DNA of 64,000 nucleotides from positions 121,014,126 to 121,078,125 of the forward strand of contig CP136069.1 of assembly GCA_032622095.1 (NCBI GenBank), in the 5' to 3' direction. Made by a program: the position numbers and the translations under genes. This DNA comes from Siphonodentalium dalli. Lineage: Eukaryota; Mollusca; Scaphopoda; Gadilida; Siphonodentaliidae. The notes beneath the pieces are model-generated. The model was not told the DNA's origin and ran no database searches. It was given only the letters and a program-made list of their open reading frames with translations. Positions 5,486 to 63,843 of this stretch are shown here, piece after piece. Each line of letters begins with the position of its first letter. The stretch's first letter is position 1.

Positions 5486-6388
5486 ATAAATATGGTAAGT
5501 TAGTCAATATATACATCTATTTTGCCAAAATGTGCAATTGCATTGACAATATATCCAGCAACTTTATCAATATATATATATATATGATTAGTTAGTCATT
5601 GTTTGCAGCTGCTTAGTCAATATATGTGGTTAGTTAGTCATTATATGCAGTTACTTAGTCAATATATGTGTCAGTTAGTCATTATTTGCAGCTACTTAGT
5701 CAATATATGTGGTCAGTTAGTCAGTATATGCAGCTACTTAGTCAATATATGCAGTTAGTTAGTCATTATATTTAGCTACTTAGTCAATATATGCAGTTAG
5801 TTAGTCATTATATGCAGCTACTTAGTCAATAAATGTGGTTAGTTAGTCATTATGTGTAGATAATTAGTCAATATATGTGACTAGTTACTCATTATATGCA
5901 GTTTCTTTGTCAATAAATGTGGTCAGTTAGTCAATATATACATCTACTTTGTCAAAATGTGCAATTGCATTGACAATATGTGCAGCTAATTTATCAATAT
6001 ATATGGTTAGTTGGTCATTATATGCAGCTACTTAGTCAATAGATGTGGTTAGTTAGTCATGTTGTGTAGATACTTAGTCAATAAATGCGGTTAGTTAGTC
6101 ATTATGTGTAGATAATTAGTCAATATATGTGACTAGTTAGTCATTATATGCAGTTTCTTTGTCAATAAATGTGGTCAGTTAGTCAATATATACATCTACT
6201 TTGTCAAAATGTGCAATTGCATTGACAATATATGCAGCTAATTTATCAATATATATGGTTAGTTGGTCATTATATGCAGCTACTTAGTCAATAGGTGTGG
6301 TTAGTTAGTCATGATGTGTAGATACTTAGTCAATAAATGCGGTTAGTTAGTCAATATATGCAGTTTCTTTGTCAATAAATGTTTTCAG
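5486..6388 (+). repeat. Minisatellite, TTAGTCATTATATGCAG orientation
   Basis: Units of about 21 nt alternate in pairs (about 42 bp), with the themes GTTAGTCATTATATGCAGC and ACTTAGTCAATATATGTGG. A higher-order block is also repeated: the CATCTACTTTGTCAAAATGTG segment occurs near 5,942 and 6,192. This is the + half of an inverted array. Confidence 0.85.
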
Positions 6389-7600
6389 TTAACTGCATAT
6401 AATGACTAACCAACTGCTTATGTTGACTGAGTAACTGCATATAATGACTAACTAACCACACATGTTGACTAAGTATCTACACATAATGACTAATTAACTG
6501 CTTATATTGACTACGTAGCTGCATATAGTGACTAACTATCCGGATATATTGACTAAGTAGCTGCATATAATGACTAACTGACCACATATATTGACTAAGT
6601 AGTTGCTTATAATGACTAACTAACCCCATATATTGACCAAATAGCTGCATATAATGACTAACTGACCAAATATTGACTAATTATTTGCATATAATGACTA
6701 ACTGACCGCATATATTGACTAAGTAATTGCATATAATGACTAACTAACCGCATATATTGACTAAGTAGCTGCATATAATGACTAACTGATCGCATATATT
6801 GACTAATTAGCTGCATATTACTAACTGACCATATATATTGACTAAGTAGCTGCATATAATGACTAACTAACCGCATATATTGACTAAGTAGATGTATATA
6901 ATGACTAACTGACCACAAATATTGACTAAGTAGTTGCATATAATGACTAACTAACCGCATATATTGACTAAGTAGCTGCATATAATGACTAACTGATCGC
7001 ATATATTGACTAAGTAGCTGCATATAATGACTAACTGACCACATATATTGACTAAGTAACTTCATATAATGACTAACTAACCACATACATTGACAATGTA
7101 GATGCCTATAATGACTAACTGACCACAAATATTGACTAAGTATAGTTGCATATAATGACTAACTAACCACATATATTGACTAAGCAGCTGCAAACAATGA
7201 CTAACTAATCATATATATATATATATTGATAAAGTTGCTGGATATATTGTCAATGCAATTGCACATTTTGGCAAAATAGATGTATATATTGACTAACTTA
7301 CCATATTTATTGACAAAGAAACTGCATATGATGACTAACTAACCGAATATATTGACTAATTTGCTACATATATTGACTAACTAACCAAATTAATGGACAA
7401 AGTATTGACCAACTAACCACATATATTGGAAACGTAGCTGCATATATTTGCAAAGTAGCTGCATATATTGACTTAACTAACCACATATATTGACAAATGA
7501 GCTGCATATATTGACTAACTAACCTCCAATATTGACAAAGTAGCCAAATATAATTACAAAGAGGCTGCATCTATTGACTAACTAACCACATATATTTATA
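6389..7600 (-). repeat. Minisatellite, inverted half
   Basis: This holds the same 21/42-bp units as 5,486-6,388 but in reverse complement (GACTAACTAACCACATATATT). The block at 7,222-7,320 mirrors 5,480-5,580. The 156-codon minus-strand reading frame at 6,658-7,128 (YMQLLSQYM repeats) is only the repeat read in an open frame. Copies become irregular after about 7,380. Confidence 0.85.
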
Positions 7601-14727: not shown

Positions 14728-14792
14728 GAGGCCATATTGTTTATAAAACATTCAAGAACATGTACTGTATATTGTAAACTATTTATAAATAA

Positions 14793-15107
14793 CTAGCTGA
14801 TGCGCACGACTTCGTCCTGGCTATTTAGGGATTTCTTTGTGATCACCTCCGTCTGGGCAGAATGTATACAGCGTGTGACAACGTGGAACAATACTGAGCG
14901 AACAACTTAGGAGTTTAGGAGAAAGAAAAAAAACTATTGTTGGATCGGTCCAGAAACATGCCTATATGAGCGTATATGAGCGAGGTCAAGGTCGGAGACA
15001 CGGTCGCATGTGAAATTGGATCCGCCCATATTGCTCCCGGGATCAAAGTACATACATACATACATACATAAATACAGACAGACAGAAGTTCCAAAATATA
15101 TAACAGA
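14793..15107 (-). mobile_element. Helitron-like non-autonomous element
   Basis: Read on the minus strand, it starts TCTGTTATATATTTTGGAA and ends in a GC-rich hairpin region followed by CTAG at 14,793-14,796, with A on the plus strand outside (T on the element strand). A GTAT/CATA microsatellite sits just inside the 5' end. The 3' part is homologous to 61,779-62,044 (shared theme AAATCCCTAAATAGCC). No Rep or helicase coding is present, so it would depend on a helper. Confidence 0.7.
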
Positions 15108-15318
15108 CTAGCAGTTGACCCCGACTTCGCCCGGGCTTTGACCTTGAATTGATTTTGAAGGTCAAGGTCAGGTCGGAGTCAATATTTGACCTGCCCAAAA
15201 CACTCCCCGGACAAAATTACCCGTATAGGTATCAAATTTCGTCGAAATCCGGGCAGCAGTTTCCCGGCAATAGCTAACAGACAAACAAACAGACAGAAGT
15301 CCCAAAATATATATTAGA
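15108..15318 (-). mobile_element. Helitron-like non-autonomous element, abutting its neighbour
   Basis: CTAG at 15,108-15,111 directly follows the TC start of the 14,793-15,107 element, so the two are head to tail. On the minus strand it begins TCTAATATATATTTTGGGA after an A and has a GCCCG/CGGGC-type hairpin (the AGCCCGGGCGAAG region) before CTAG. It is 211 bp long. Confidence 0.7.
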
Positions 15319-15619
15319 TCATTTGTGGGTACCCATTTCAAGGTGAAGGTCACCTCGGGCGGAAAAACTGACCCGATGAAAATCTCCCGCATTCCCAGGA
15401 ACCCCTAAGTACGAACACAGAATCACACAACACGCTCATGTTTGTACACAGACACAACACACTCATGTCTGGACACATACGCGTTCTTTATCAACGACAC
15501 TGTGGGTACGAACGCTCTTTAACTATCACGCGATTAACCCATGAATTGCCATTGCGGTGGCGGGGGATTGGAGAATGAGTGCTCTGGCGTTCTCAAATGC
15601 GGTCCGATGACCATTCCCG
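15319..15619 (-). mobile_element. Helitron-like element, 5' part only
   Basis: The sequence is homologous to 52,878-53,200 within a complete minus-strand element (shared GGGTACCC, CACCTCGGGCGGAAAAACTG and AACGCTCTTTAACTATCA). It is interrupted by the element ending at 15,318 and by the CACTG MITE starting at 15,620, in the CCATTCCCG site that is continuous at about 53,185. Confidence 0.6.
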
Positions 15620-15819
15620 CACTGAAAAAAAAAACTTAGTTAAAAGTAACTAAGTTACCTTAGTCAGAACCCCCGTCTCAAAACTAACTAGCTTAGCTTA
15701 GTCAGAAATGACTAAGGGCAACCTTAGTCATTTCTGACTAAGCTAAGCTAGTTAGTTTTGAGACGGGGGTTCTGACTAAGGTAACTTAGTTACTTTTGAC
15801 TAGGTTTTTTTTTTCAGTG
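15620..15819. mobile_element. CACTG...CAGTG palindromic MITE
   Basis: This 200-bp near-perfect palindrome begins CACTGAAAAAAAAAACTTAG and ends TTTTTTTTTCAGTG. The inner arms (GTCAGAACCCCCGTCTC and its complement) match for almost 90 bp. CACTG ends suggest the EnSpm/CACTA or Chapaev type, but I could not find a convincing target duplication, so the superfamily is open. Confidence 0.8.
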
Positions 15820-18162: not shown

Positions 18163-18696
18163 CACTGAAAAAAAACTTAGTCATAGCCTTAGTCATTATG
18201 TTATTTTTGGCTAAGTTAGTCAAAAATAACTGAGTTACGGGTTGACTAAGGCTATGACTAAGTTTTTTTTTTGACGAAAATATTAACCTAAGTAACTAAG
18301 AATTAGTAAGATGTGACTAAGGTCAAACTTAGTTACTTTTGGCTAAGTTAGTCAAACATATCCTATCCATCGAAACAATTTTTCATTATCACTCTTGCTT
18401 AAAGCCAATTGGCGGTTTGCGTTCACTTGTGCAAAACATTGAAAAAAGCAGTTATACTGTATGGAGCAGATTAAGATTCAGTTATACTGTATGGAGTCAT
18501 TGCCGTGTATAATATGTCGCCGATAGGTATACTATTGAGTTTTGCCGGCATGACTGAATCACGAAAATATCAACCTTAGTAACTAAGAATTAGTAAGATG
18601 TGACTAAGGTAAAACTTAGTTACTTTTGGCTAAGTTAGTCAAAAATAACTAAGTTACGGGTTGACTAAGGCTATGACTAAGTTTTTTTTTTCAGTG
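18163..18696. mobile_element. CACTG...CAGTG MITE, internally duplicated
   Basis: The ends CACTGAAAAAAAACTTAG and TTTTTTTTTCAGTG match the element at 15,620-15,819. Inside, the block ACGAAAATATtAACC...GATGTGACTAAGG occurs twice in direct orientation (from about 18,274 and about 18,561). The 534-bp element is therefore a partial dimer, probably from nested insertion or recombination between copies. Confidence 0.75.
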
Positions 18697-18699
18697 CGT

Positions 18700-18804
18700 G
18701 TTTTTACCCTTATATATCAAGTTTTGGTTAAATCCGCCCGGCAGTTTTCCCGGCCATAGCTAACAGACAAACAGACAAACAGAAGTCCCAAAATATATAT
18801 TAGA
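18700..18804 (-). mobile_element. Helitron-like 5' end fragment
   Basis: On the minus strand this starts TCTAATATATATTTTGGGA, has a GTTTGTCT microsatellite, and then text like 15,200-15,318. The 3' half is missing where it meets the MITE at 18,696. Confidence 0.6.
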
Positions 18805-51660: not shown

Positions 51661-52549
51661 TAAACCAGCTGGAAAGTCTGTCGTGTGAGCAAATTATTAC
51701 CAAATAATTTTCAGATCAAACACTATGTAATCTAATAAATGCATAATGCTCTGCAAAATATATATACGGAGTTTGATGATAATATGCTAATACGTTGAAT
51801 TAACATTTGAATAATTCAGCTCAACACAGATTGGCATTCAATTGTCTGCCGTTTTTATCCATACCCATCGGGGTGTATCTCCGGGTCTATCATTGCCATC
51901 ACGATTGATACCAGTGAAGTAAATTTTGCATGACCTGATACCATCAATTGCTGCATATAACCTTGCCATCAAGTATCAGATAAAACCGATCTAACAAGCA
52001 TTGTACTCGGCGCTTGTGTATTTTGATATCAGATTGTCTGCGTCTAATTCGGTCTTTGGGTTCAGAATCGCGGAACAATTGCACGGATATTATTTATAAT
52101 GGTTCGAATTGAAGCGACACGTGTCTGATAATTCAGATAAACGACATTGTTTGCTCTTTTAAAAATGTGTTCGTGCACTTAGCGGTATGGCAGAGCTGCA
52201 CGATTGGGGCGAAATCATGCATTGAGTTAGTGCATGTGCCAACAACGTTATACCCAAACAATATGAACCAAAACAGCTGTACGGTATGCTTGTATGCAGT
52301 ATATAAGTTAAATGTTTCTAGTTGTCTAGATCTGTCTTAGAGTGGTACAAGGCCGGGTGGGACAAATATCATGGTTTCACCGACGCGACGCGGATGGTAG
52401 TTTTGTCAGACCGAGCTGTGTGCACGCATTATCATAAACATGGCATAAAATAAAATTTACCATGTCGGCGAACCCAAAGACTTTGAAATATCTGACTGCA
52501 CTAGATCCTGCCGTGAATCTCTGTTCTGGTTACGCCCGTATATATATCA
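51661..52549. other. No recognisable gene
   Basis: AT-rich. Nothing is supported up to the CTAG terminus at 52,550. Confidence 0.3.
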
Positions 52550-53215
52550 CTAGCAGGTTAGCCCGCCACTGGCGGCATTCGTCAGAAACATGACAATTTT
52601 TTATTTTTTTAATTAATTTTTTAATTGAATTTTTTGTTTTTCAGTGAGTTAATTTTGCCTTTTTAATTTACTGGCTTTTTTAATTATTTTTTTTTAATTA
52701 ATTTTTAGTTTAATTTTTTGTTTTTCAATTTGACCCGATTTGACCTTGAATTTATCATTCTCAAGGTCAAGGTCAGTTCGGGGTCACAATTTAACCGGTC
52801 CATGACACTTCACGTAGGTAGCAAGTTTGAGCTCAATCGGTTCGAGTCTATAAAGGACACACACATATATATCATTTGTGTGTACCCGTTTCAAGGTGAA
52901 GATCACCTCGGGCGGAAAAACTGACCCGATGAAAATCTCCCTCGTTCCTAGGAAGCCCTAAGTGCGTAAGAATCACACAACACGCTCATGTCTGGATACA
53001 TATGCATGGTCACGCCCGTACACAGACGTAAGACTCACATTACACGCATACGCTCTTTATCAACAACACTGCGGATACGAACGCTCTTTAACTATCAACG
53101 CGATTAAATCCACAGTGCCGCTTTTTTGTGACTCAGAGTGGAGAACGGGTGCTCGGAGCTTCTCCAAAACGCCGCGACGACCATTCCCGAATGAAGTCTC
53201 AAAAGATATAGTAGA
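52550..53215 (-). mobile_element. Helitron-like element 1, minus strand
   Basis: On the minus strand it begins TCTACTATATCTTTTGAGA and ends with the hairpin CCGCC-AGT-GGCGG, 9 nt and CTAG at 52,550-52,553, with A outside on the plus strand (T on the element strand). A T-rich tract and a GACCTTGACCTTGA theme lie inside. Its 5' end directly touches the 3' CTAG of the next element. 666 bp, no coding potential. Confidence 0.8.
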
Positions 53216-53890
53216 CTAGCAGGTTAGCCCGCCACTGGCGTGGTTGGTCAGAAACATGACAGTTTTAATTTTTTAATGTTTTTTTTTTTTTTTTTTTTAA
53301 TTAATTTTTGGTTTTTCAACATTTTACCCGATTGAATTGGTCATTTTCAAGGTCAAGGTCAGGTCGGGGTCACAATTTAACCCGTTCATGACACTTCCCG
53401 TAGGTATCAAGTGTGAGCGCAATCGGTTCGAGTCTATAAATGACACATGCACACATATATATATAATTTGTGGGTACCCGTTTCGAGGTGAAAATCACCT
53501 AGGGCGGAAAACCTGACCCGATCCGCGTTCATAGGAAGCCCTAAGTACGTAAGAACCACACAACACGCATATATATAATTTGTGGGTACCCGTTTCAAGG
53601 TTAACATCACCTAGTGACGCAATGTAGACAGTGTCGTTCGCGGTGATTTTGATGATTGGGAGTTTATCACTTGATTAACCACCGCAGTGCCGTTCGCGGT
53701 GATTTTGATGATTGTGAGTGGAGAAAGGGTGCTCAGAGCTTCTCCAAAATGCGACAACTACGGTGTCCGTTGGATTTTACCCTTATATACGAAATTTGAG
53801 CTCGATCCGACCAGCCTTTTTCGATTCTATGAAGTACACACACATAACACACACATATATATCCGGAAGTCTCAAAATATATAGTAGAGA
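53216..53890 (-). mobile_element. Helitron-like element 2, minus strand
   Basis: CTAG at 53,216-53,219 follows the start of element 1 without a gap. The minus-strand 5' end is TCTCTACTATATATTTTGAG, with T outside on the plus strand, so the dimer sits between A and T as expected for one A|T target. It carries the same hairpin stem (loop AGT, with a T after the stem altering the flank). It contains a partial duplication of GTTCGCGGTGATTTTGATGA (53,635 and 53,692). Confidence 0.75.
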
Positions 53891-53976
53891 TATTCCATAA
53901 GTTCAAAACCTGAGAACTTTTTGAAGATCTGACATGTACATGTATATTTTATTATATAATTATATATAATTATCTA

Positions 53977-54903
53977 TCTATTATATATTTTGGAAGATCT
54001 GTGTGTCTGTGTGTGGTCTGTGTGTGTGTGTCTGTGTGTGTGTTCGCGATGAACTCAAAAACGGCCCACCCGATTTCGATGAAACTTGGTATGTGGGGGT
54101 ATTTTCGGCCGGGGACGAACATAGGCCTATTAATTTGTCCGTGCGAGGTCAACTTTTCACGTGCCGAGGTCAAATCTGTTTTTACGCCGTTTTGCGCTAA
54201 TATATTTCAGTTCGGTGCTTACAAATCGATTCGAAACAGCGCGAATAATAACATGCCAGTCATAATAATGACACTATGAGAATCTTTCGTGTTTCCTCTT
54301 TCCAACGATATATAATATGTATGTATCCGTTTTAGTTATCTGCCTCAATTATTAAGAAGAAGTGGTACGATCTTCTATCAGGGTAAAAACAATGCGTAAC
54401 TTCTATGACGTCGTTAGAGGTCATAAAGTTAGATCACGTTAACTCTTCTCCGGCCGATGCATTTGACTGTTTCAGACGTCTTGGCGATATCTCGGGCACC
54501 GATGGTAATTTATCTTTACGTTGAAACTTGATAATTAATGAGCGTGTGTATATGAGGCGCGTTTATATACTTCAGTGGAAATCAAATCGGGTTAAACTGG
54601 CGGATTTTTTCGGACGAAATTTGATGCATAGGGTATCTCGGTATCCGCTGGGCCGATTTCCCGGTATCCGCTGGGCCGATTTCCACCATTTTTGGGGTGT
54701 TGGTCCACCTGACCTTGACCTTCAAAATGGTCAATTCAAGGTCAAATCGGGTAAAACCGGATGGATTTCGACGGGTACTTTTGTCGGGTACTTTTGTTCG
54801 GGCACTGTGTTTTGGACGGGTCAAATCGTGACCCCACTTGACCTTGGCCTTCAAAATAGACAATTCAAGGTCAAAGCCCGGACGAAGTCGGGTCACCTTC
54901 TAG
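53977..54903 (+). mobile_element. Helitron-like element 3, first of the plus-strand array
   Basis: It starts TCTATTATATATTTTGGAAG after an A. A GTGTGTCT microsatellite follows, then core repeats with a GGTCAATTCAAGGTCAAATC theme. It ends in GCCCGGACGAAGTCGGG, a short spacer and CTAG. The next element begins at the following base. Confidence 0.75.
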
Positions 54904-55836
54904 TACTATATATTTTGAGACTTCCGTATATATATATATATGTGTGTGTACTTTATAGAATCGAAAACGGCTGGCTCGATTGAGTTCAAACTTCCCATCT
55001 AAGGGTAAACACACACGAACACCGTAGTTGTCGCGTTTTGGAGAAGCTCAGAGCACCCGTTCTCCAATCTCAGTCACAAAAAACGGCACTGCGGTGGTTA
55101 ATCAAGTGATAATTTAATGAGCGTTTGTTTTTGACGCATCGCTATAAAGAGCGTCTGTTTACCATTCAACGTTATTAGTATCTGCGGAGAGATATACGGG
55201 ATTTTGAGTGGTTTCCTATGCGGGGAGATTTATTGGATGCCATAATACTCTTACAACATCATTGTTATAGTATGTATGACACTTAGGTCAGGGCTTGGGG
55301 AGGGGGGTTAGTTAGTGTGGATATAGGCATAATGCTTCTCAGAAATCCCGGTTACAAACCAACACTCACAATTTCGTCTTTTGCATCAGATACCAACACC
55401 TCGACCGATCGGGACGAAACTTGGTAAGTGAGTGTAGTTTGACCAGGTGGTCGTCGTTGTCGTATTGGCGAGCCCGTGCGACGCCTTGCAGCGCATGCAC
55501 AGACGAGATCTCGGAAACGGGTGGAGCTTTCGACTTGAAATTTGCTATGTGAATGTATCTTGCCCCGGATACGAATTTTATCGGGTCGCCGAGCCCGTGC
55601 GACGCCAGCTTCGCGCATGCGCAGACCAGATCTCGGAAAGGGTGGAGCTACCGACTTGAAATTTGGTTTTTGAATAGCCCGGACAACGTCGGGCTCAACA
55701 ATTTTTCATCGGGTCAGTTCTTTCCGCCCGATGTACCTTAAATCTTTTAGGGACGGGTACCATAATTTCTCGTTGAAAAGCCAAAACAAATGTCATGTTT
55801 CGGACCAACGCCGCCAGTGGCGGGCTAACCTGCTAG
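54904..55836 (+). mobile_element. Helitron-like element 4
   Basis: Starts TACTATATATTTTGAGACTT (the leading TC reduced to T) and a TATATGTGTG microsatellite, and ends CCGCC-AGT-GGCGG, 9 nt, CTAG. Inside are two core copies (GCCCGTGCGACGCC...) and an internal hairpin-like AGCCCGGACAACGTCGGGCT at about 55,677, which may be a captured terminus of another family. Confidence 0.75.
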
Positions 55837-56698
55837 TCTATACTATATATTTTGAGACTTCCGTATATATATGTGTGTGTGTGTGTGGTTACTTTATGGA
55901 ATCCAAAACGCGTGTACAGATCGAGCTCAAACTTCGTATGTATGTGTGAAATCCCACGGACACCGCCGTGGTCGCGTTTTGGAGAAGCTCAGAGCACCCG
56001 TTCTCCAATCTCTGTCACAAAAAACGGCACTGCGGTGGTTAAGACATCAACGATCTTTATATTGACCTTGTACGGAGGTGTTATCAATTAACGCTCTTTA
56101 TTGCAATGGACGTGGCTAAACGACTGACCCCATGCGTCTGAAATACGGATGCGGATTCCAATGGACGTGGCTAAACGACTGACCCCATGCGTCCGAAATA
56201 CGGATGCGGACGAAATGCAATTATCTCGACTGTATATTGCAGAGGGATTTCACGACGGGATTAATTGACTGTCCGCTCTGAAGTTTAGGACGGGGAGGAC
56301 GGGTACCATGAATTAACTCATTGAAAAACAAAGAATGCGTTATCTCGGAAACGGGTGGAGCTTTCGACTTGAAATTTGCTATGTGAATGTATCTTGCCCC
56401 GGATACAAATTTTATCGGGTCGCCGAGCCCGTGCGACGCCAACTTCGCGCATGCGCAGACGAGATCTCAGAAACGGGTGGAGCTATCGACTTGAAATATA
56501 CTATGTGAATGTATCTTGCCCCGGATACGAATTTTATCGGGTCGCCGAGCCCGTGCGACGCAAGCTTCGCGCATGCGCAGACCAGATCTCGGAAACGGGT
56601 GGAGCTATCGACTTGAAATTTGGTTAAATTAAAAAAATGTCATGTTTCTGAAACAAAGCCATGAGACGAATGCCGCCAGTGGCGGGCTAAACTGCTAG
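55837..56698 (+). mobile_element. Helitron-like element 5
   Basis: Starts TCTATACTATATATTTTGAG right after the previous CTAG and ends with the same hairpin and CTAG. It includes a direct repeat of about 58 bp (CAATGGACGTGGCTAAACGA at 56,104 and 56,159) and two 122-bp-type core repeats. Confidence 0.8.
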
Positions 56699-56960
56699 TC
56701 TACTATATAATTTGAAACTTCCGTATATATATGTGTGTGTATATATGTGGGTACTTCATAGAATCGAAAACGCGTGTACAGATTGATCGGGCTCAACCCG
56801 GACAACGTCGGGCTCAACAATTTTTCATCGGGTCAGTTCTTTCCGCCCGATGTACCTTAAATCTTTTAGGGACGGGTACCATAATTTCTCTTGATTAAAA
56901 AGGCACCATTAAAATGTCATGTTTCTGACCAACGCCGCCAGTGGCGGGCTAACCTGCTAG
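56699..56960 (+). mobile_element. Helitron-like element 6 (short)
   Basis: 262 bp from TCTACTATATAATTTGAAAC to CTAG. It keeps the 5' microsatellite and the 3' hairpin but lacks core repeats, so it is a minimal internally deleted form. Confidence 0.8.
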
Positions 56961-58893
56961 TCTATACTATATATTTTGAGACTTCGTATATGTGTGTGTG
57001 TGTACTTCATAGAATCCAAAACGCGTGTAAAGATTGAGCTCAAACTTCCTATGTAAGTGTCAAATCACACCGACACGACCGTGGTCGCAGTTTAGAAAAG
57101 CTCAGAGCACCCGTTCTCCAATCTCAAATCACCGCAAAGGCACGGCGTGGGTTAATCAAGTGATTATTTAATGAGCGTTTGTTTTTGACGCATGTCTATA
57201 AAGAGCGTCTGTTTGCCATTCAACGTTATTTGCATCTGCAGAGAGATATACGGAACATACATTAAATTAAAAAAACATTTGTTTCTGACCAACCCTGCGA
57301 GCACGGATGGCGCGCTTTGTTTTTACAGTATATAATAATATACCGAAATCATCCCAGATAATCACGAATATAGCATCAGATTTCTCCCCAGATATAGCTA
57401 CTGGAATCTGCCAATCTACGGGAAATTCCAGGGAATGCCGATTGAGCTCAAACTTGCTACCCACGGGAAGTGTCATATTTTTGAGTGTGTCCTTTATAGA
57501 CTCGAACCGATTGAGCTCAAACTTGCTAAATAAGAAAATAGCCCCCAAGCCGTAAATATCAACAACAACGATATTGCTACCTACGGGGAGCAACGTTGTT
57601 AGCATCTGCAGAATTATGCAGACAGAAAGTGCTTTCCTATTTTTAGAACGCAACACATGTTTACGTCGCGTTGGTGATTGAGGTTCACAACGGGGTTAAT
57701 TGACTGTCCGCTCTTTGCGACGATGAGGTTCACGGCGGGGACTATTGACCAACACTCACAATTTCGTCTTTTGCATCAGATACCAACACCTCGACCGATC
57801 GGGACGAAACTTGGTACGTGAGTGTAGTTTGACCAGGTGGTCGTCGCTGTTGTATTGGCGAGCCCGTGCGACGCCCGTGCAGCGCATGCGCAGACGAGAT
57901 ATCGGAAACGGGTGGAGCTATCGACTTGAAATTTGGTATGTGAATGTATCTTGCGCCGGGTACAAATTTTATCGGGTCGCCGAGCCCGTGCGACGCCAGC
58001 TTCGCGCATGCGCAGACCAGATCTCGGAAACGGGTGAGGCTACCGGGTACAAATTTTTCTTATTGAAACGCGTGGAGCTAAAAATAAAAAAAATATATAT
58101 AAAAACATGTCATGTTTCGGACAAGCCGCCGGTGGCGGGCTAACCTAATCTGCCAATCTACGGGAAATTCCAGGGAATGCCGATTGAGCTCAAACTTGCT
58201 ACCCACGGGAAGTGTCATATTTTTGAGTGTGTCCTTTATAGACTCGAACCGATTGAGCTCAAACTTGCTAAATAAGAAAATAGCCCCCAAGCCGTAAATA
58301 TCAACAACAACGATATTGCTACCTACGGGGAGCAACGTTGTTAGCATCTGCAGAATTATGCAGACAGAAAGTGCTTTCCTATTTTTAGAACGCAACACAT
58401 GTTTACGTCGCGTTGGTGATTGAGGTTCACAACGGGGTTAATTGACTGTCCGCTCTTTGCGACGATGAGGTTCACGGCGGGGACTATTGACCAACACTCA
58501 CAATTTCGTCTTTTGCATCAGATACCAACACCTCGACTGATCGGGACGAAACTTGGTACGTGAGTGTAGTTTGACCAGGTGGTCGTCGCTGTCGTATTGG
58601 CGAGCCCGTGCGACGCCCGTGCAGCGCATGCGCAGACGAGATATCGGAAACGGGTGGAGCTATCGACTTGAAATTTGGTATGTGAATGTATCTTGCGCTG
58701 GGTACAAATTTTATCGGGTCGCCGAGCCCGTGCGACACCAGCTTCGCGCATGCGCAGACCAGATCTCGGAAACGGGTGAGGCTACCGGGTACAAATTTTT
58801 CTTATTGAAACGCGTGGAGCTAAAAATAAAAAAAAAATATATAAAAACATGTCATGTTTCGGACAAGCCGCCGGTGGCGGGCTAACCTGCTAG
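56961..58893 (+). mobile_element. Helitron-like element 7, with an internal 742-bp duplication
   Basis: Starts TCTATACTATATATTTTGAG and ends CCGCC-GGT-GGCGG, 9 nt, CTAG. Units 57,405-58,146 and 58,147-58,888 are near-identical direct copies, each ending in the terminal hairpin. The first copy runs from GCTAACCT straight into the start of the second, losing GCTAG. Confidence 0.8.
57405..58888 (+). repeat. 742-bp tandem duplication inside element 7
   Basis: AATCTGCCAATCTACGGG begins both units exactly 742 bp apart, and only a handful of substitutions separate them (for example near 58,537 and 58,697). It is either a recent duplication or an assembly artefact. Confidence 0.92.
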
Positions 58894-59703
58894 TCTCTTC
58901 TATATATTTTGAGAACTCCTTGTATTCGAGAGATAGCCCACACCCTCCGGACCTCAATGATATGATCGTGAATGAGTATTGATATACCCCACTAAACTTT
59001 GACAAACACCATTAATGGTGTGTAGATCATTTACATATCTCTCCTATATATTTTGATACAATCTATCTAATTTACATATCTCTCTTATATATTTATGTTT
59101 GTGTGTGTGTTGTGTACTTCATACAAATCTACGATTCTCGACCGATCGGGACGAAACTTGGTACGTGTGTGTAGTTTGACCAGGCGGTGGTCGTAGTCGT
59201 GGTCGTAGCCCGTGCGACGCCCGTGCAGCGCATGCGCAGACGAGATCTCGGAAACGGGTGGAGCTATCGACTTGAAATTTGCTATGTCAATGTATCTTGC
59301 GCCGGGTACAAATTTTATCGGGTCGCCGAGCCCGTGCGACGCCCGTGCAGCGCATGCGCAGACGAGATCTCGGAAACGGGTGGAGCTATCGACTTGAAAT
59401 TTGCTATGTGAATGTATCTTGCGCCGGGTACAAATTTTATCGGGTCGCCGAGCCCGTGCGACGCCCGTGCAGCGCATGCACAGACGAGATCTCGGAAACG
59501 GGTGGAGCTATCGACTTGAAATTTGGCATGTGAATGTATCTTGCGCCGGGTACAAATTTTCATGCGCAGACCAGATCTCGGAAACTGGTGGAGCTACCGG
59601 GTACAAATTTTTATTATTGAAACGCGTGGAGCTAAAAATTAAAAAAATATATATAAAAATGTCATGTTTCGGACAAGCCGCCGGTGGCGGGCTAACCTGC
59701 TAG
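58894..59703 (+). mobile_element. Helitron-like element 8
   Basis: Starts TCTCTTCTATATATTTTGAG after CTAG and ends CCGCC-GGT-GGCGG, 9 nt, CTAG. Near its 5' end the start-like phrase CTCCTATATATTTTGA recurs at 59,040 and again at about 59,081, suggesting nested 5' ends. It contains the cleanest core-repeat array (59,208-59,573). Confidence 0.75.
59208..59573 (+). repeat. 122-bp core repeat, three copies
   Basis: GCCCGTGCGACGCCCG starts at 59,208, 59,330 and 59,452, an exact 122-bp period. Each unit includes the palindrome GCGCATGCGC (GCGCATGCAC in the third), GAGATCTCGGAAACGGGTGG, and the ending GGGTACAAATTTTATCGGGT. Diverged copies occur in elements 4, 5, 7 and 9, and at about 5,405-5,480. 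Confidence 0.95.
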
Positions 59704-60879
59704 TCTATACTATATATTTTGAGACTTCGTATATATGTGTGTACTTCATAGAATCCAAAACGCGTGTACAGATTGAGATCAAATTTCGTATGTAAGTGTA
59801 AAATCCCACCGACACCGCCGTAATCGTGTTTTCGAGAAGCTCTGAGCACCCTTTATCCACTCCCAGTCATCGAAATCAGCTCAAACGGCACGGCCGGGGT
59901 TAATAACGTCATTATATATATATATGAAGTCAGAGTCTCCAAAGTTATACCGGAACAAACACGTGTTTACGTCGTCTTGGGGGTCCACGATGGGAGTCTG
60001 ACTTCAATGCAATGTTATCGCTCGAAACACGTGTTTACTTCGTGTTGAGGTTCACGATGGGAGTCTGACAATTGTTATCGCTCGAAATAGTACATTAGGA
60101 CGGGAACGGCTGGACAGATTGAGCTCAAACTTCCTATCTAAAGGTAAAATACCACGTACGATGTCGTCCACGCGTTTTCCAGAAGCTCCGAGCACCCGTA
60201 CTCCACTCCCAGTCATAAAAATCAACTCAAACGGCACGGCCGGGGTTAATAACGTCATTATATATATATATACGAAGTCAACGTTATTAGCATCTGCATT
60301 GAGTGCATTTCCTAGAACGCAACACGTGTTTTACGTCGTCTTGAGGTTCACGATGGGAGTCATTTCAATGCAATGTTATCGCTCGAAACACGTGTTTACT
60401 TCGTGTTGAGGTTCACGATGGGAGTCTGACATTTCAATGCAATGTTATCGCTCGAAATATTATGCAGAAAGGTAGATCTCGGAAACGGGTGGAGCTATCG
60501 ACCTGAAATTTGCTATGTGAATGTATCTTGCACCGGGTACAAATTTTATCGGGTCGCCGAGCCCATGCGACGCCCGTGCAGCGCATGCGCAGACGAGATC
60601 TCGGAAACGGGTGGAGCTATCGACTTGAAATTTGCTATGTGAATGTATCTTGGGCCGGGTACAAATTTGATCGGGTCGCCGAGCCCGTGCGACGCCAGCT
60701 TCGCGCATGCGCAGACCAGATCTCGGAAACGGGTGGAGCTACCGGGTACAATTTTTTCTTATTGAAACGCGTGGAGCTAAAAATTAAAAAAAAATATAAA
60801 CAAATGTCACAATTAACTCATTGAAAAACAAAAAATGTCATGTTTCGGACAAGCCGCCGGTGGCGGGCTACCCTGCTAG
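59704..60879 (+). mobile_element. Helitron-like element 9
   Basis: Starts TCTATACTATATATTTTGAG and ends CCGCC-GGT-GGCGG, then GCTACCCTG and CTAG. An internal phrase around CGCTCGAAACACGTGTTTAC recurs several times (about 60,010-60,450), and two core-repeat copies follow. Confidence 0.75.
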
Positions 60880-61778
60880 TTACTATATAATTTGAGACTT
60901 CCGTATATATATATGTGTGTGTGTGCATCTTTGTCCTCTATAGACTCGAAAACGACTGGCTCGATTGAGCTCAAACTTCCCATCTAACGGTAAAAACACA
61001 CGGGAATCGTCGTCGCGGCGTTTTGGAGAAGCTCTGAGGACTCATTCTCCACTCCCAATCATCAAAAAACGGCACTGTGAGATTAATCGTGTTGATAGTT
61101 AAAGAGCGTTCGTATCAGCAGTGTCATTGATAAAGAGCGTATGCGTGTAATGTGATTCTTACGTCTGGGCCCGGGCGTGAGCGTGACTGTATCCAGACAT
61201 GAGCGTGTTGTGTGATTCTTACGTACTTGGGGCTTGATTGATTGTTTATTGTTTATTGGTGATATAATGAATACTTATGTTTATGACAATTATAATACAA
61301 GAAGAGTATAACATTATATCACCAGGGGATGACGTAATCTCGAGGACTGTCTTCCTGTCATCCCCTGGCGCAGATTTGGTGATTAAGGCCTGATTATATA
61401 ATCAACGTATGTACAAAAATCATGTGAGTGATTCAAGTGGTGTCTCTGGTCCATAACTAAGCTCTTTTCTTGAATGAGTAATTGGTTATTGCAGGAGAGA
61501 TGATGCTCGGGGCTTCCTAGGAACGGGGGAGATTGAGCTCAAACTTGCTACCTACGGGAAGTGTCGTGGACTGGTTAAATTGTGACCCCGACCTGATCTT
61601 GACCTTGAAAATGATCAATTCAAGGTCAAATCGGGTCAAATTGAAAAAAAAAATTTGAATTAAAAAATTAAAAAGTCACAATTAACTCATTGAAAAACAA
61701 AAAATTAAATTAAACAAATTTTGTTTTTAAATTGTCATGTTTCTGACGATTGCCGCCAATGGCGGGCTAACCTGCTAG
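60880..61778 (+). mobile_element. Helitron-like element 10
   Basis: Starts TTACTATATAATTTGAGACT after CTAG and ends CCGCC-AAT-GGCGG, 9 nt, CTAG. Its interior is interrupted at about 61,226-61,500 by DNA with a TGGTGATATAATG/CATTATATCACCA inverted pair and a CAGGGGATGAC/GTCATCCCCTG hairpin. Uninterrupted relatives read CTTGGGGCTTCCTAGGAAC-like text there, so this is a nested insertion. Confidence 0.75.
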
Positions 61779-62044
61779 TATTATATATTTTGGAAGTTCT
61801 GTGTGTATGTATGTATGTATGTATGTGTGTTATAGACCCGAAAACTTCTCGACCGATCCGACTCAAATTTGGTATGCAGGCCTACTTCCTGATCACAGGA
61901 ACAATATGGGCGGGTCCAATTTCACGTGCGACTGTGTCCTTGACCTTGACCTCGATATACGATCGAACTTTATATTCTGCCCAGACGGAGGCGATCACAA
62001 AGAAATCCCTAAATAGCCCGGATGAAGTCGAGCATATCAGCTAG
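61779..62044 (+). mobile_element. Helitron-like element 11, last of the array
   Basis: 266 bp from TATTATATATTTTGGAAGTT to CTAG, followed by T. A GTAT microsatellite lies near the 5' end, and the hairpin is AGCCCGGATGAAGTCGAGC. It matches the minus-strand element at 14,793-15,107 rather than its array neighbours. Confidence 0.8.
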
Positions 62045-63002
62045 TATTATATATGTTAGTCAATGCTATTTCCTTAATAATATAGTATAAGGTTGATATT
62101 GCACGATTTAGGCTACATACTAGTAACTTTTGTGATTACCGTGACACCGGGGAAAATTGTATGATTGTAAGCGATGCGAAGCGAAATCCGCTCACAAAAT
62201 CTCACAATCGCTGGCATAAAATATTCGTTACATGACGTTTAGGTGGTGGAAGTGGTGTCCTTTGAGGCTCAGCGAAAACAATATTGTTATCACTTCGCCT
62301 CATATGACGGCGTATCCGCATAACTACCATGCTATACAACTGATGATTGCCAGCTAAGTTAGTTGCACGGTAATATCATATTCCCTTTTAATTGACGTTA
62401 TATAACCGTGTATAAATTTAAAACAAATAGAAAGGTATTCCAAAAACATCACACTTTAAATAAACCGATTGTATTTCAACAGAAAGCATTACGAATATTG
62501 CATAATGCTACATATGTCATACTGAATCTCTCTTCGAAAAACTCTTATTTTAAAGGTGAAAGACCTGTATATTCTCGAATTTCTCGGAGCTTCCCAGTAT
62601 ATTCGTGACTGGCATTTGAATGCATTACCTTTTGTACTTTTGTAGATCTTCACTAAAGGTGACAAGTCGAGAATTAAAACAAGATAGAAGGGAAGAATAT
62701 ACCAAAGTAAACCAGAAACACATTTTCAGAAAATCTCCCAATTCATAATTTTCCCAAAATATGGAATCAGTGTATTGTTTGGCGTCAGGATCTTATGCCC
62801 CGTACCACATTCAAATGACAATCAACACACGTTGCCATTGACTGCTACTCGCAGAAAGTAGAATGCAAAAATATGTACATGTATTGCCAAGATTGCTACC
62901 CAGGTATTATGGATAATTAAACATGAGACATTGTTTATCAATGATATACCAATTTAATGAATTCCATTACACACATTATGATATTTTATTTTAATGGAAA
63001 TA
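62045..63002. other. No recognisable gene
   Basis: AT-rich. The segment at about 62,138-62,222 is related to 33,755-33,835. Nothing else is supported. Confidence 0.3.
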
Positions 63003-63345: not shown

Positions 63346-63383
63346 AACAGTTAGTAAATAAATGAGAATAATATGACACAAAA

Positions 63384-63843
63384 GTATATCAGTCTGGTTA
63401 GCATTTAGTATATAAGTCTGGTTAGCATTTAGTATATCAGTCTGGTTAGCATTTGGTATATCAGTCCGGTTAGCATTAGTATATCAGTCTATTTACCATT
63501 TAGTATATCAGTCAGGTTACCACTTAGCATATCAGTCTGGTTACCATTTAGTATATCAGTCTGGTTACCATTTAATGTATCAGTCTGGTTAGCATTTAGT
63601 ATATCAGTCTGGTTAACATTTAGTATATCAGTCTGGTTACCATTTAGTATATCAGTCTGGTTACCATTTAGCATATCAGTCTGGTTACCATTTAGTATAT
63701 CAGTCTGGTTACCATTTAGTATATCAGTCTGGTTACCATTCAGTATATCAGTCTGGTTGCCATTTCGTATAGCAGTCTGGTTACCATTTAGTATATCAGT
63801 CTGGTTACCATTTACTATATCAGTCTGGTTACCATTTAACATA
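63384..63843. repeat. 24-bp satellite, about 19 copies
   Basis: The unit is TATCAGTCTGGTTACCATTT plus AGTA. The first few copies differ (GCATTT for CCATTT, and length variants). Because 24 is a multiple of 3, the minus strand reads as an uninterrupted octapeptide repeat (NGNQTDIL). That frame runs from 63,938 to 63,489 but has no supporting coding features. Confidence 0.95.

Follow-up and report, generated by a model that had tools for sequence, protein, structure and literature searches.

Where Helitrons lie next to each other head to tail, they have been explained by rolling-circle concatemers or, alternatively, by insertion next to a resident element, and the order of insertion is left open in the excerpts of the two studies cited here (PMC2267711, PMC5148889). 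Helibat1/Helraiser of bats have the 5′ TC, the 3′ hairpin followed by CTAG, the A|T target, the AT-rich 3′ flank and a Rep/Helicase partner in common with the elements analyzed here. A 5′ end abutting the 3′ end of another Helitron, with empty-site evidence, is already contained in the cited part of the Helraiser study (PMC4778049). For maize, a CTAG|TC junction between two unlike elements was described in 2008 and consecutive insertion was argued, with insertion between the A of the host and the first T of the element as one of two proposed orders in the part cited (PMC2267711). Head-to-tail or tandem arrays are also known from Myotis, Bombyx and plant centromeric Helitrons, and the cited passages explain them by termination that is bypassed, or by rolling-circle amplification and circular intermediates (PMC4067079, PMC5148889, PMC5876387). 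The Metarhizium acridum triple and the FoHeli self-insertions are chimeras in which one 3′ end is combined with several 5′ termini, but according to the excerpt these are Helitron2-like, and there is one triple (PMC5148889). In an invertebrate, Crassostrea gigas, non-autonomous rolling-circle elements (Helentrons) are tied to satellite-like tandem repeats; judging by the title of that study, the repeats are carried by the element, whereas in our case whole elements stand in tandem (PMC7492417).

Tandem Helitrons are already known, and what is new here is the scale and the resemblance of the 5′ end to the target. In contrast to Helibat1/Helraiser, about three quarters of the sampled ends of one family (B, see below) abut an element, and the family's own 5′ end matches the target motif. 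The maize example is a single pair whose order is unclear in the cited part, whereas thousands of junctions are available here, with truncations and orphan bases pointing to the 5′ side. Unlike in the Myotis, Bombyx and plant arrays, most of the adjacent units that we compared are unlike each other, and several families are involved. As many of the junctions record a truncation or an orphan, the question of insertion order becomes countable and is no longer just argued. If a transposon has its own target within its end, scattered copies could in this way turn into long tandem blocks, a step toward satellite-like DNA.

Results

The window, a 64,000-bp stretch of contig CP136069.1 of the scaphopod Siphonodentalium dalli, contains a block at 53977–62044 for which a preliminary description had claimed nine Helitron-like units, joined head to tail without a base between them and flanked by A and T. 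Reading the sequence directly and scanning it confirmed these edges exactly, with A at 53976 and T at 62045, and each of the first eight 3′ ends directly abuts the next 5′ end. The units have the pattern A|TC ... hairpin ... CTAG|T of non-autonomous Helitrons, in the order one family A unit, seven family B units and one family A unit, and the minus strand carries two further pairs without a gap (53890–52550 and 15318–14793):

53973–53976, plus strand: orphan TCTA, read as the initial four bases split off from E2, whose host border would then be the A at 53972
53977–54903, plus strand: E1, family A non-autonomous Helitron, TCTATTATATATTTTGG ... AGCCCGGACGAAGTCGGGTCACCTT-CTAG, apparently within the 5′ end of E2
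54904–55836, plus strand: E2, family B, 5′ end cut down to TACTATATATTTTGAG, probably by E1
55837–56698, plus strand: E3, family B, complete 5′ end TCTATACTATAT
56699–56960, plus strand: E4, family B, short (262 bp), 5′ end TCTACTATATAATTTG
56961–58893, plus strand: E5, family B, internal direct duplication (57405–58146 and 58147–58888, 742 bp, 99.3% identical)
58894–59703, plus strand: E6, B-type 3′ end, 5′ subtype TCTCTTCTATATATTTTGAGAAC, two more inner 5′-like motifs (at about 59038 and 59079)
59704–60879, plus strand: E7, family B, complete 5′ end
60880–61778, plus strand: E8, family B, 5′ end TTACTATATAATTTG, the E4 form minus one base
61779–62044, plus strand: E9, family A, 5′ end TATTATATATTTTGG, degenerate hairpin, CTAG, then host T at 62045 (TATTATATATG)
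53216–53890, minus strand: M1, family B, host A at 53891
52550–53215, minus strand: M2, family B, abutting M1 without a gap, host T at 52549
15108–15318, minus strand: F1, family A-like, host A at 15319
14793–15107, minus strand: F2, family A-like, abutting F1 without a gap (CTAG|TCTGTTATATAT), host T at 14792

The 3′-end motif was matched 10 times in the window (up to 3 mismatches) and the joined B junction four times, compared with none in 100 dinucleotide shuffles in either case. Two families with different hairpins are indeed present, but the claim that they are interleaved was overstated, as E1 and E9 have a GCCCG...CGGGC-type 3′ end and E2–E8 the CCGCC type. The constant CCGCC/GGCGG stem described earlier extends over these seven consecutive units, although its assignment to "elements 4–10" does not fit a count of nine, and the loop varies as had been reported (AGT in E2–E4, GGT in E5–E7, AAT in E8). 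The hairpins are short and fold no more strongly than shuffles (z from +0.68 to −1.26 for the nine window units), and their support therefore comes from conservation. A new 5′ end follows every junction as proposed, but at three of them it lacks the TC (E2, TACTATAT; E8, TTACTATATAA; E9, TATTATAT).

The assignment to the Helitrons, made in the preliminary description, was borne out by the ends, the target and an autonomous relative. The 5′ TC of the canonical type (Helitron1) is present in six of the nine window units (E1, E3–E7), the exceptions being E2, which E1 would explain, E8 and E9, and it was seen at 23 of 24 host borders of B cores, with three further borders that are preceded by a likely damaged CTAG left out. 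All nine units end in CTAG, with a GC stem upstream in E1–E8. Genome-wide, T is the next base in 10,794 of 10,907 exact B 3′ ends (99%), and A, C or G in 113. The base before TC is A at 19 of the 23 TC-starting host borders and G at four, in agreement with A/T insertion without target duplication. Terminal inverted repeats are absent: exact inverted matches between the two ends of a unit reach 5–8 bp at most in seven units, and the 10-bp matches of E5 and E6 are AT-only and internal. An autonomous partner with Rep (HUH, two Tyr), PIF1 helicase and common ends was found in a similar array on contig C1, where a unit with family A-type ends, rather than the CCGCC 3′ end, encodes a 1614-aa ORF with Helitron_like_N, PIF1 and Pif1_2B. 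An assignment to Helentron, Helitron2 or HINE does not agree with the A on the left in 19 of 23 cases, where T|T would be expected, and the nine window units have no exact subterminal inverted repeat of at least 12 bp (Helentron type, 12–15 bp) between their ends. Satellite monomers could be ruled out, as the window units vary in length (262–1,933 bp) and family and neighbours are alike over a part only; a search for periods up to 500 bp found none that was array-wide. In Pfam searches, eight window ORFs yielded nothing beyond a weak RT fragment and a DUF match, both below cut-offs, and the 3′-end motif had zero matches in a viral contig collection.

Gap-free Helitron arrays are common in this genome, and the mixed run in the window is not exceptional. 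By script count, 72 of the first 100 B 3′ ends on contig C1 abut another element and 28 do not; re-reading by eye turned four of the 28 into element 5′ variants and one of the 72 (L109) into a probable host border, giving about 75 versus 25. All 49 neighbouring pairs within 5 kb in this sample are on the same strand. Most of the arrays that we cut into units (83 units) contain several families, and a 50-kb block on C1 has 31 recognised ends together with the autonomous Rep/Helicase copy.

Many B 5′ ends are truncated. Among the first 100 exact 5′ cores, 32 lack the leading TC; 29 of these are behind CTAG (26 directly, three with 2–4 bases between), two are behind a CTA that resembles a damaged 3′ end, and one is at host DNA. 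The 68 cores with TC comprise 44 behind CTAG and 24 that are not (Fisher p 0.007; 0.0004–0.0007 when the three CTA cases are either assigned to elements or omitted). A direct truncation is defined by the CTAG in front, so that 26 of 26 behind CTAG follows from the definition itself; the fair comparison, which is weaker, is the one between cores that have TC and cores that lack it. In the genome, the exact core occurs 7,660 times; CTAG directly followed by the core (truncated junction, CTAG|TACT) was counted 1,766 times, TCTA plus core 4,087 times, and CTAG plus TCTA plus core 2,179 times, while 1,807 cores, covered here by sampling, are directly preceded by neither TCTA nor CTAG. An orphan TCTA, i.e. 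TCTATCTA followed by the core, was found 871 times, compared with about 11 expected from the TCTA frequency of the window. Such TCTA repeats could also arise by slippage or be passed on through transposition.

In the window, bases 53973–53976 joined to 54904 give TCTATACTATATATTTTGAGACTTC, the 5′ end with the 4,087 exact genomic copies, and in silico excision of E1 restores a complete 5′ end of E2. On this reading of the sequence, E1 would have split the 5′ end of E2 by nested insertion. Orphans that match the short 5′ ends of E8 and E9 were not found, and the window tally is one orphan versus two or three short 5′ ends (E2, E9, perhaps E8).

The ledger of the 100 sampled cores contains 22 orphans and the 26 direct truncations. 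An unused orphan lies 5′ of 14 truncations, and the order is reversed for five; global shuffles gave a mean of 3.9, and none of 20,000 reached 14. Within-array shuffles with host-border units kept fixed reached 14 in 1,995 of 50,000 cases, and the orphan–truncation order alone is therefore modest evidence. Unmatched are 12 of the 26 truncations, in a sample that consists of exact B cores and often excludes the left border, and in one array (L029) orphans outnumber truncations. Orphans lie 5′ of truncations in 28 versus 6 cases within 3 kb, 16 versus 5 of them below 58 Mb, where full units are also found more often 5′ of truncations (20 versus 11), partly by construction. Every truncated unit has a neighbour 5′ of it in any case, which makes the raw direction test a weak one.

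The 5′ end itself resembles the target. The nested site TCTA^TACTATATATTTT scored 6.44 (median of left-out host sites, 5.90) on a matrix built from 20 distinct host 3′ flanks, and was in the top 0.4% of 11,328 background A^T sites. Inside units, it was the best of 138 sites in E3, the best of 190 in E7 and the second of 282 in E5. Removal of three flanks that resemble element 5′ ends moved it down to the top 1.7% (score 3.99, compared with a host median of 4.23). The exact edge A^TCTATACT was in the top 12.5% and is not a strong target, so that the commonest junction, CTAG|TC, is left unexplained by the motif. A preference for AT-rich 3′ flanks is also reported in the cited part of the Helraiser study (PMC4778049).

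Discussion

Our data make it likely that the arrays are canonical non-autonomous Helitrons that accumulated as copy after copy inserted at the 5′ end of an element already in place, or just within that end. From the observed ends, strands, junctions, the T next to 99% of the 3′ ends, the TC-less ends that are mostly behind elements, the excess of orphans and the fit of the nested site, we infer an insertion route at A^T and the resulting direction of growth. The incoming strand would enter at A^T, at the nested TCTA^TACTATATATTTT within the resident 5′ end, and this would leave an orphan TCTA on the left of the newcomer and a truncated resident on its right. Alternatively, entry could occur where host A meets the TC of the copy standing furthest left, resulting in a CTAG|TC junction, which taken by itself is ambiguous as to its origin. 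Each newcomer would bring its own 5′ end as a fresh landing site, and arrays would therefore extend toward the 5′ side on a single strand and without spacers. Mobilisation presumably occurs in trans by Rep/Helicase Helitrons such as the one located in the C1 array. The more far-reaching idea that the Helitron 5′ terminus is the preferred landing site of its own family (A^TACTATATATTTT), with self-propagating, directional growth, stacking across families and 5′-side insertion as the solution of the G|T puzzle, is tentative, and we give it somewhat less than an even chance. If it is true, families with a common 5′ motif could pile up on each other, and the old question of how tandem Helitrons acquire their G|T junction would be answered by insertion on the 5′ side.

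Rolling-circle concatemers, formed by read-through of the 3′ end or by circle replication and inserted as a block of joined copies, are an unlikely alternative. A CTAG|TC junction would also result from a circle, such circles have been demonstrated for Helraiser in the part of the study cited (PMC4778049), and among exact B cores the junctions with TCTA outnumber the truncated ones (2,179 versus 1,766). Identical neighbours, which are present in L031 (three units of 1,125 bp with 100% identity) and in L026 (identical units in A-A-B-A-B order), show that local amplification occurs elsewhere in the genome and is needed in these two arrays; near-identical neighbours are also found in parts of the C1 block. 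In the window, however, the seven adjacent pairs compared (E2–E9) are 82.7–92.1% identical over 12–75% of the longer unit, the families differ, and an exact search of the genome found the E3|E4 junction a single time. Concatemers of complete elements would, furthermore, yield neither the CTAG|TACT truncations nor the orphan TCTA. The rolling-circle read-through that had been considered for the window array thus does not fit its divergent neighbours and truncated junctions, and of the two routes offered in the preliminary description it is repeated insertion that we retain, at the 5′ end of the resident rather than at the previous 3′ end.

We regard it as improbable that segmental duplication and unequal crossing-over multiplied a few founding junctions that diverged later. 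The near-identical units at two places of the C1 block, the dimer repeat of L026 and the 742-bp duplication in E5 would agree with this, but most of the arrays that were cut into units mix several families, and in nine of ten fetched loci 5′ ends of several kinds stand behind the same E3-type tail, the tenth having matched another part of the query. The 107 bases to the right of the array had no other match among 40 scored of 230 candidates, nor was an empty-site repeat found there. An E3–E4 composite that moves as one element was also considered, as a search across the junction matched query bases 1–227 widely (40 scored of 4,266 candidates), and it was dropped because the 5′ end behind the tail varies in nine of the ten loci and the precise join has no second copy in the genome.

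Insertion at the 3′ end of the previous element, with G^T as the target, is very improbable. It would also give gap-free joins and is one reading of the maize pair in the cited part of that paper (PMC2267711), but the host target is A^T, with A on the left at 19 of 23 TC-starting borders and T on the right in 99% of cases, and neither the truncated resident 5′ ends nor the orphan TCTA would be accounted for. An assembler that collapsed or chained copies could have miscounted the identical L031 units, but we attach next to no probability to such an artefact, as the window units are all different, the same junction types recur thousands of times, and 49 of 49 neighbouring pairs are on the same strand.

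For stacking at resident 5′ ends, an age order of the window units might be sought in their nearest relatives. The comparison with the 83 sampled units, in which coverage is inflated by inner repeats, is not monotonic along the array and is no test of it: E6 has the highest identity (about 97.5%), followed by E5 (about 96.6%), E7 and E3 are lower, and E8 and E9 are absent from the list. The first of the inner 5′-like motifs of E6 is also present in four other arrays (L023, L025, L028 and L034).

The nine-unit block

The gap-free, head-to-tail run of nine Helitron units claimed in the preliminary description for 53977-62044 of the window was borne out when the unit ends were read, scanned for and used to cut the block into units. 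The units, which end either in a GCCCG...CGGGC-type hairpin (family A) or in a CCGCC/GGCGG stem (family B), are:

E1, 53977-54903, + strand, family A 3' end
E2, 54904-55836, + strand, family B 3' end; starts TACTATAT
E3, 55837-56698, + strand, family B 3' end; begins TC
E4, 56699-56960, + strand, family B 3' end; begins TC
E5, 56961-58893, + strand, family B 3' end; begins TC
E6, 58894-59703, + strand, family B 3' end; begins TC
E7, 59704-60879, + strand, family B 3' end; begins TC
E8, 60880-61778, + strand, family B 3' end; starts TTACTATATAA
E9, 61779-62044, + strand, degenerate family A 3' end; starts TATTATAT

All nine units terminate in CTAG, each followed by T, and six of the nine start with TC, the exceptions being E2, E8 and E9; shuffled sequence yielded neither such 3' ends nor such junctions. 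Gap-free pairs also occur on the minus strand of the window, at 15318-14793 and at 53890-52550, the latter being separated from the opposed nine-unit block by 82 bases (53891-53972). The A and T proposed as host flanks of the block are both present, but the left A (53976) is read as the last base of E2's TCTA. The sequence on either side of E1 rejoins to A|TCTATACTATATATTTTGAGACTTC, and E1 sits within the 5' end of E2. No second orphan, that is, a detached TCTA, was found left of the block, though the starts of E8 and E9 are also short and would need small deletions or lost orphans under nested insertion. The 107 bases immediately 3' of the block had no other match in the 40 of 230 candidates that were scored.

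Adjacent units from E2 to E9 (seven pairs) are 82.7-92.1% identical, across 12-75% of the longer unit, and the block is therefore not the product of recent copying of a single unit. The sole recent duplication seen in it lies within E5 (742 bp, 99.3%); this direct duplication spans 57405-58888, and its first copy stops inside the 3' terminal stretch (CTAACCT|AATCTGCC). The genome has a single copy of the E3|E4 junction. Ten places similar to that stretch were read; the search that located them was biased towards abutting loci because its query crossed the junction. Nine have a 5' end immediately after an E3-type tail (four of TACT type, four TCTACT, one TCTATACT), and at the tenth (L149) the match fell in a different part of the query.

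In units of the E6 5' subtype, a second 5'-like motif (ACATATCTCTCCTATATATTTTGATAC) lies some 144 bp inward, and E6 has a third after it (58894-59100); the inner motif recurs in several arrays (loci L023, L025, L028 and L034). These units resemble the chimeras described for FoHeli (PMC5148889), which combine multiple 5' termini with a single 3' end. A perfect palindrome, ACACCATTAATGGTGT, lies between the first and second motifs of E6 (59006-59021).

Arrays across the genome

In the 2.23-Gb genome (9 contigs), the exact B 3' end followed by T occurs 10,794 times (backward control, 0) and followed by A, C or G 113 times, and 3,945 of the 7,660 exact B 5' cores have CTAG in front of them, either immediately or separated by TCTA alone. 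We sampled the first 100 B 3' ends and the first 100 B 5' cores in contig order, all within the initial 31 Mb of contig C1 and not selected for arrays. Neighbours within 5 kb shared a strand in 49/49 pairs of 3' ends and 52/53 pairs of cores. By script, 72 of the 3' ends abutted another element and 28 did not; inspection by eye shifted this to about 75 versus 25, reclassifying four of the 28 as 5' variants of elements and one of the 72 (L109) as probable host DNA.

One array (L021-L025, C1:13712001-13762000, reverse strand) has 31 recognised 3' ends in the same orientation. The 30 intervening units comprise 18 that start with TC, ten that start with TACT or TATT, and two in which A|TC is preceded by a short (TA)n spacer. 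The array includes an autonomous unit of 8,686 bp with family-A-type ends, whose 1,614-aa frame bears HSH and YVCKY motifs and matches Helitron_like_N, PIF1 and Pif1_2B in Pfam; PF14214 has at least 151 matches in the genome, with 150 of 457 first-look candidates scored. Near-identical units recur in this array about 8-13 kb apart (e.g., 35676/44158 and 27567/40706, array coordinates). Runs longer than nine units were seen elsewhere, and most arrays cut into units contain mixed families, so that the mixture is not special to the window. Identical neighbours, namely three units in L031 and further ones in L026, show that amplification is also at work in this genome.

Proposed insertion at the resident 5' end

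Helitrons insert between A and T, and a second element is therefore unable to land canonically at the G|T of a resident 3' end. The resident 5' end offers two A^T sites, the edge A|TC at the outer border and the nested site TCTA^TACTATATATTTT four bases in, and insertion at the latter would necessarily put an orphan TCTA to the left of the newcomer and a 5'-truncated resident (CTAG|TACT...) to its right. Both predicted traces were found. Genome-wide, CTAG directly precedes a truncated core 1,766 times, and 871 of the 4,087 TCTA-preceded cores read TCTATCTA plus core, where about 11 are expected from the TCTA frequency of the window. For the edge class, two routes are inferred: the leftmost copy may receive an ordinary A^T insertion, or the A|TC site cleaved by the transposase may itself serve for landing; rolling-circle joining is a possible alternative here, as it would give the same CTAG|TC junction.

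Among the sampled cores, 32 lacked the leading TC: 26 followed CTAG directly, three followed it at a distance of two to four bases, two came after a CTA resembling a damaged 3' end, and one lay at host DNA. Of the 68 TC-bearing cores, 44 lay behind CTAG and 24 did not (L056 being reassigned from the script call to host). Fisher's test on this comparison gave p 0.007, or 0.0004 to 0.0007 when the three CTA cases count as elements or are dropped.

In a ledger of 22 orphans and 26 direct truncations, restricted to exact B cores and often covering part of an array, 14 truncations found an unused orphan when arrays were read from the 5' side, and five when read backwards. Global shuffles gave a mean of 3.9 and reached 14 in 0/20,000, free within-array shuffles in 81/20,000. 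With host-border units fixed, 14 was reached in 6/50,000 shuffles pooled over arrays and in 1,995/50,000 within arrays, so that order on its own is modest evidence. Within 3 kb, an orphan was on the 5' side of a truncation in 28 cases and on the 3' side in six (100 truncations, 46 orphans); below 58 Mb the counts were 16 versus 5, with plain full units giving 20 versus 11, partly by construction.

Target preference

From 24 host-flanked 3' ends (the four variants set aside), 20 distinct flanks remained after four duplicates or near-duplicates were dropped, and a matrix of 13 positions beyond the T gave a host motif of about T-A/G-T-W-W-T-A-T-A-W-A. This agrees with the published preference of Helraiser for AT-rich sequence, strongest on the 3'-end side (PMC4778049). 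The nested site scored 6.44 (left-out host median, 5.90), a value reached by 0.4% of 11,328 background A^T sites of the window, and ranked first among the A^T sites on both strands of E3 (n=138) and E7 (n=190) and second in E5 (n=282). Three of the 20 flanks are themselves similar to element 5' ends; when these are excluded, the score of the nested site is 3.99 and the host median 4.23, and 1.7% of the background scores as high. The nested site thus looks like a typical host target with or without these flanks, and its rank depends on them. The family A edge, A^TCTATTATATATTTT, scored 5.02 (top 1%), and the B edge, A^TCTATACT, was unremarkable (top 12.5%).

Helitrons, or elements derived from them, have been described in tandem in bats, silkworm, Drosophila, maize, rice and fungi (PMC4067079, PMC5148889, PMC2267711, PMC5876387, PMC4778049). 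The maize paper (PMC2267711) proposes both insertion orders without choosing, and the Fusarium paper (PMC5148889) considers a single triple, for which it suggests either a rolling-circle origin or insertion at the 5' end. In the paper listings searched, no study appeared that presents a Helitron's 5' end as a target for that same element.

Other repeats in the window

Tandem repeats of 21/42 bp fill about 2 kb (5578-7596) and switch strand near 6385, such that two satellite arms stand face to face. A palindromic A-rich element (CACTGAAAAAAA...ACTTAGTCA...) lies beside or within Helitron-like sequence at 15620-15819 and about 18300-18700; it looks like a foldback element or MITE. At 63383-63838, a 24-bp tandem repeat is present in 19 copies, with a frame open on both strands.
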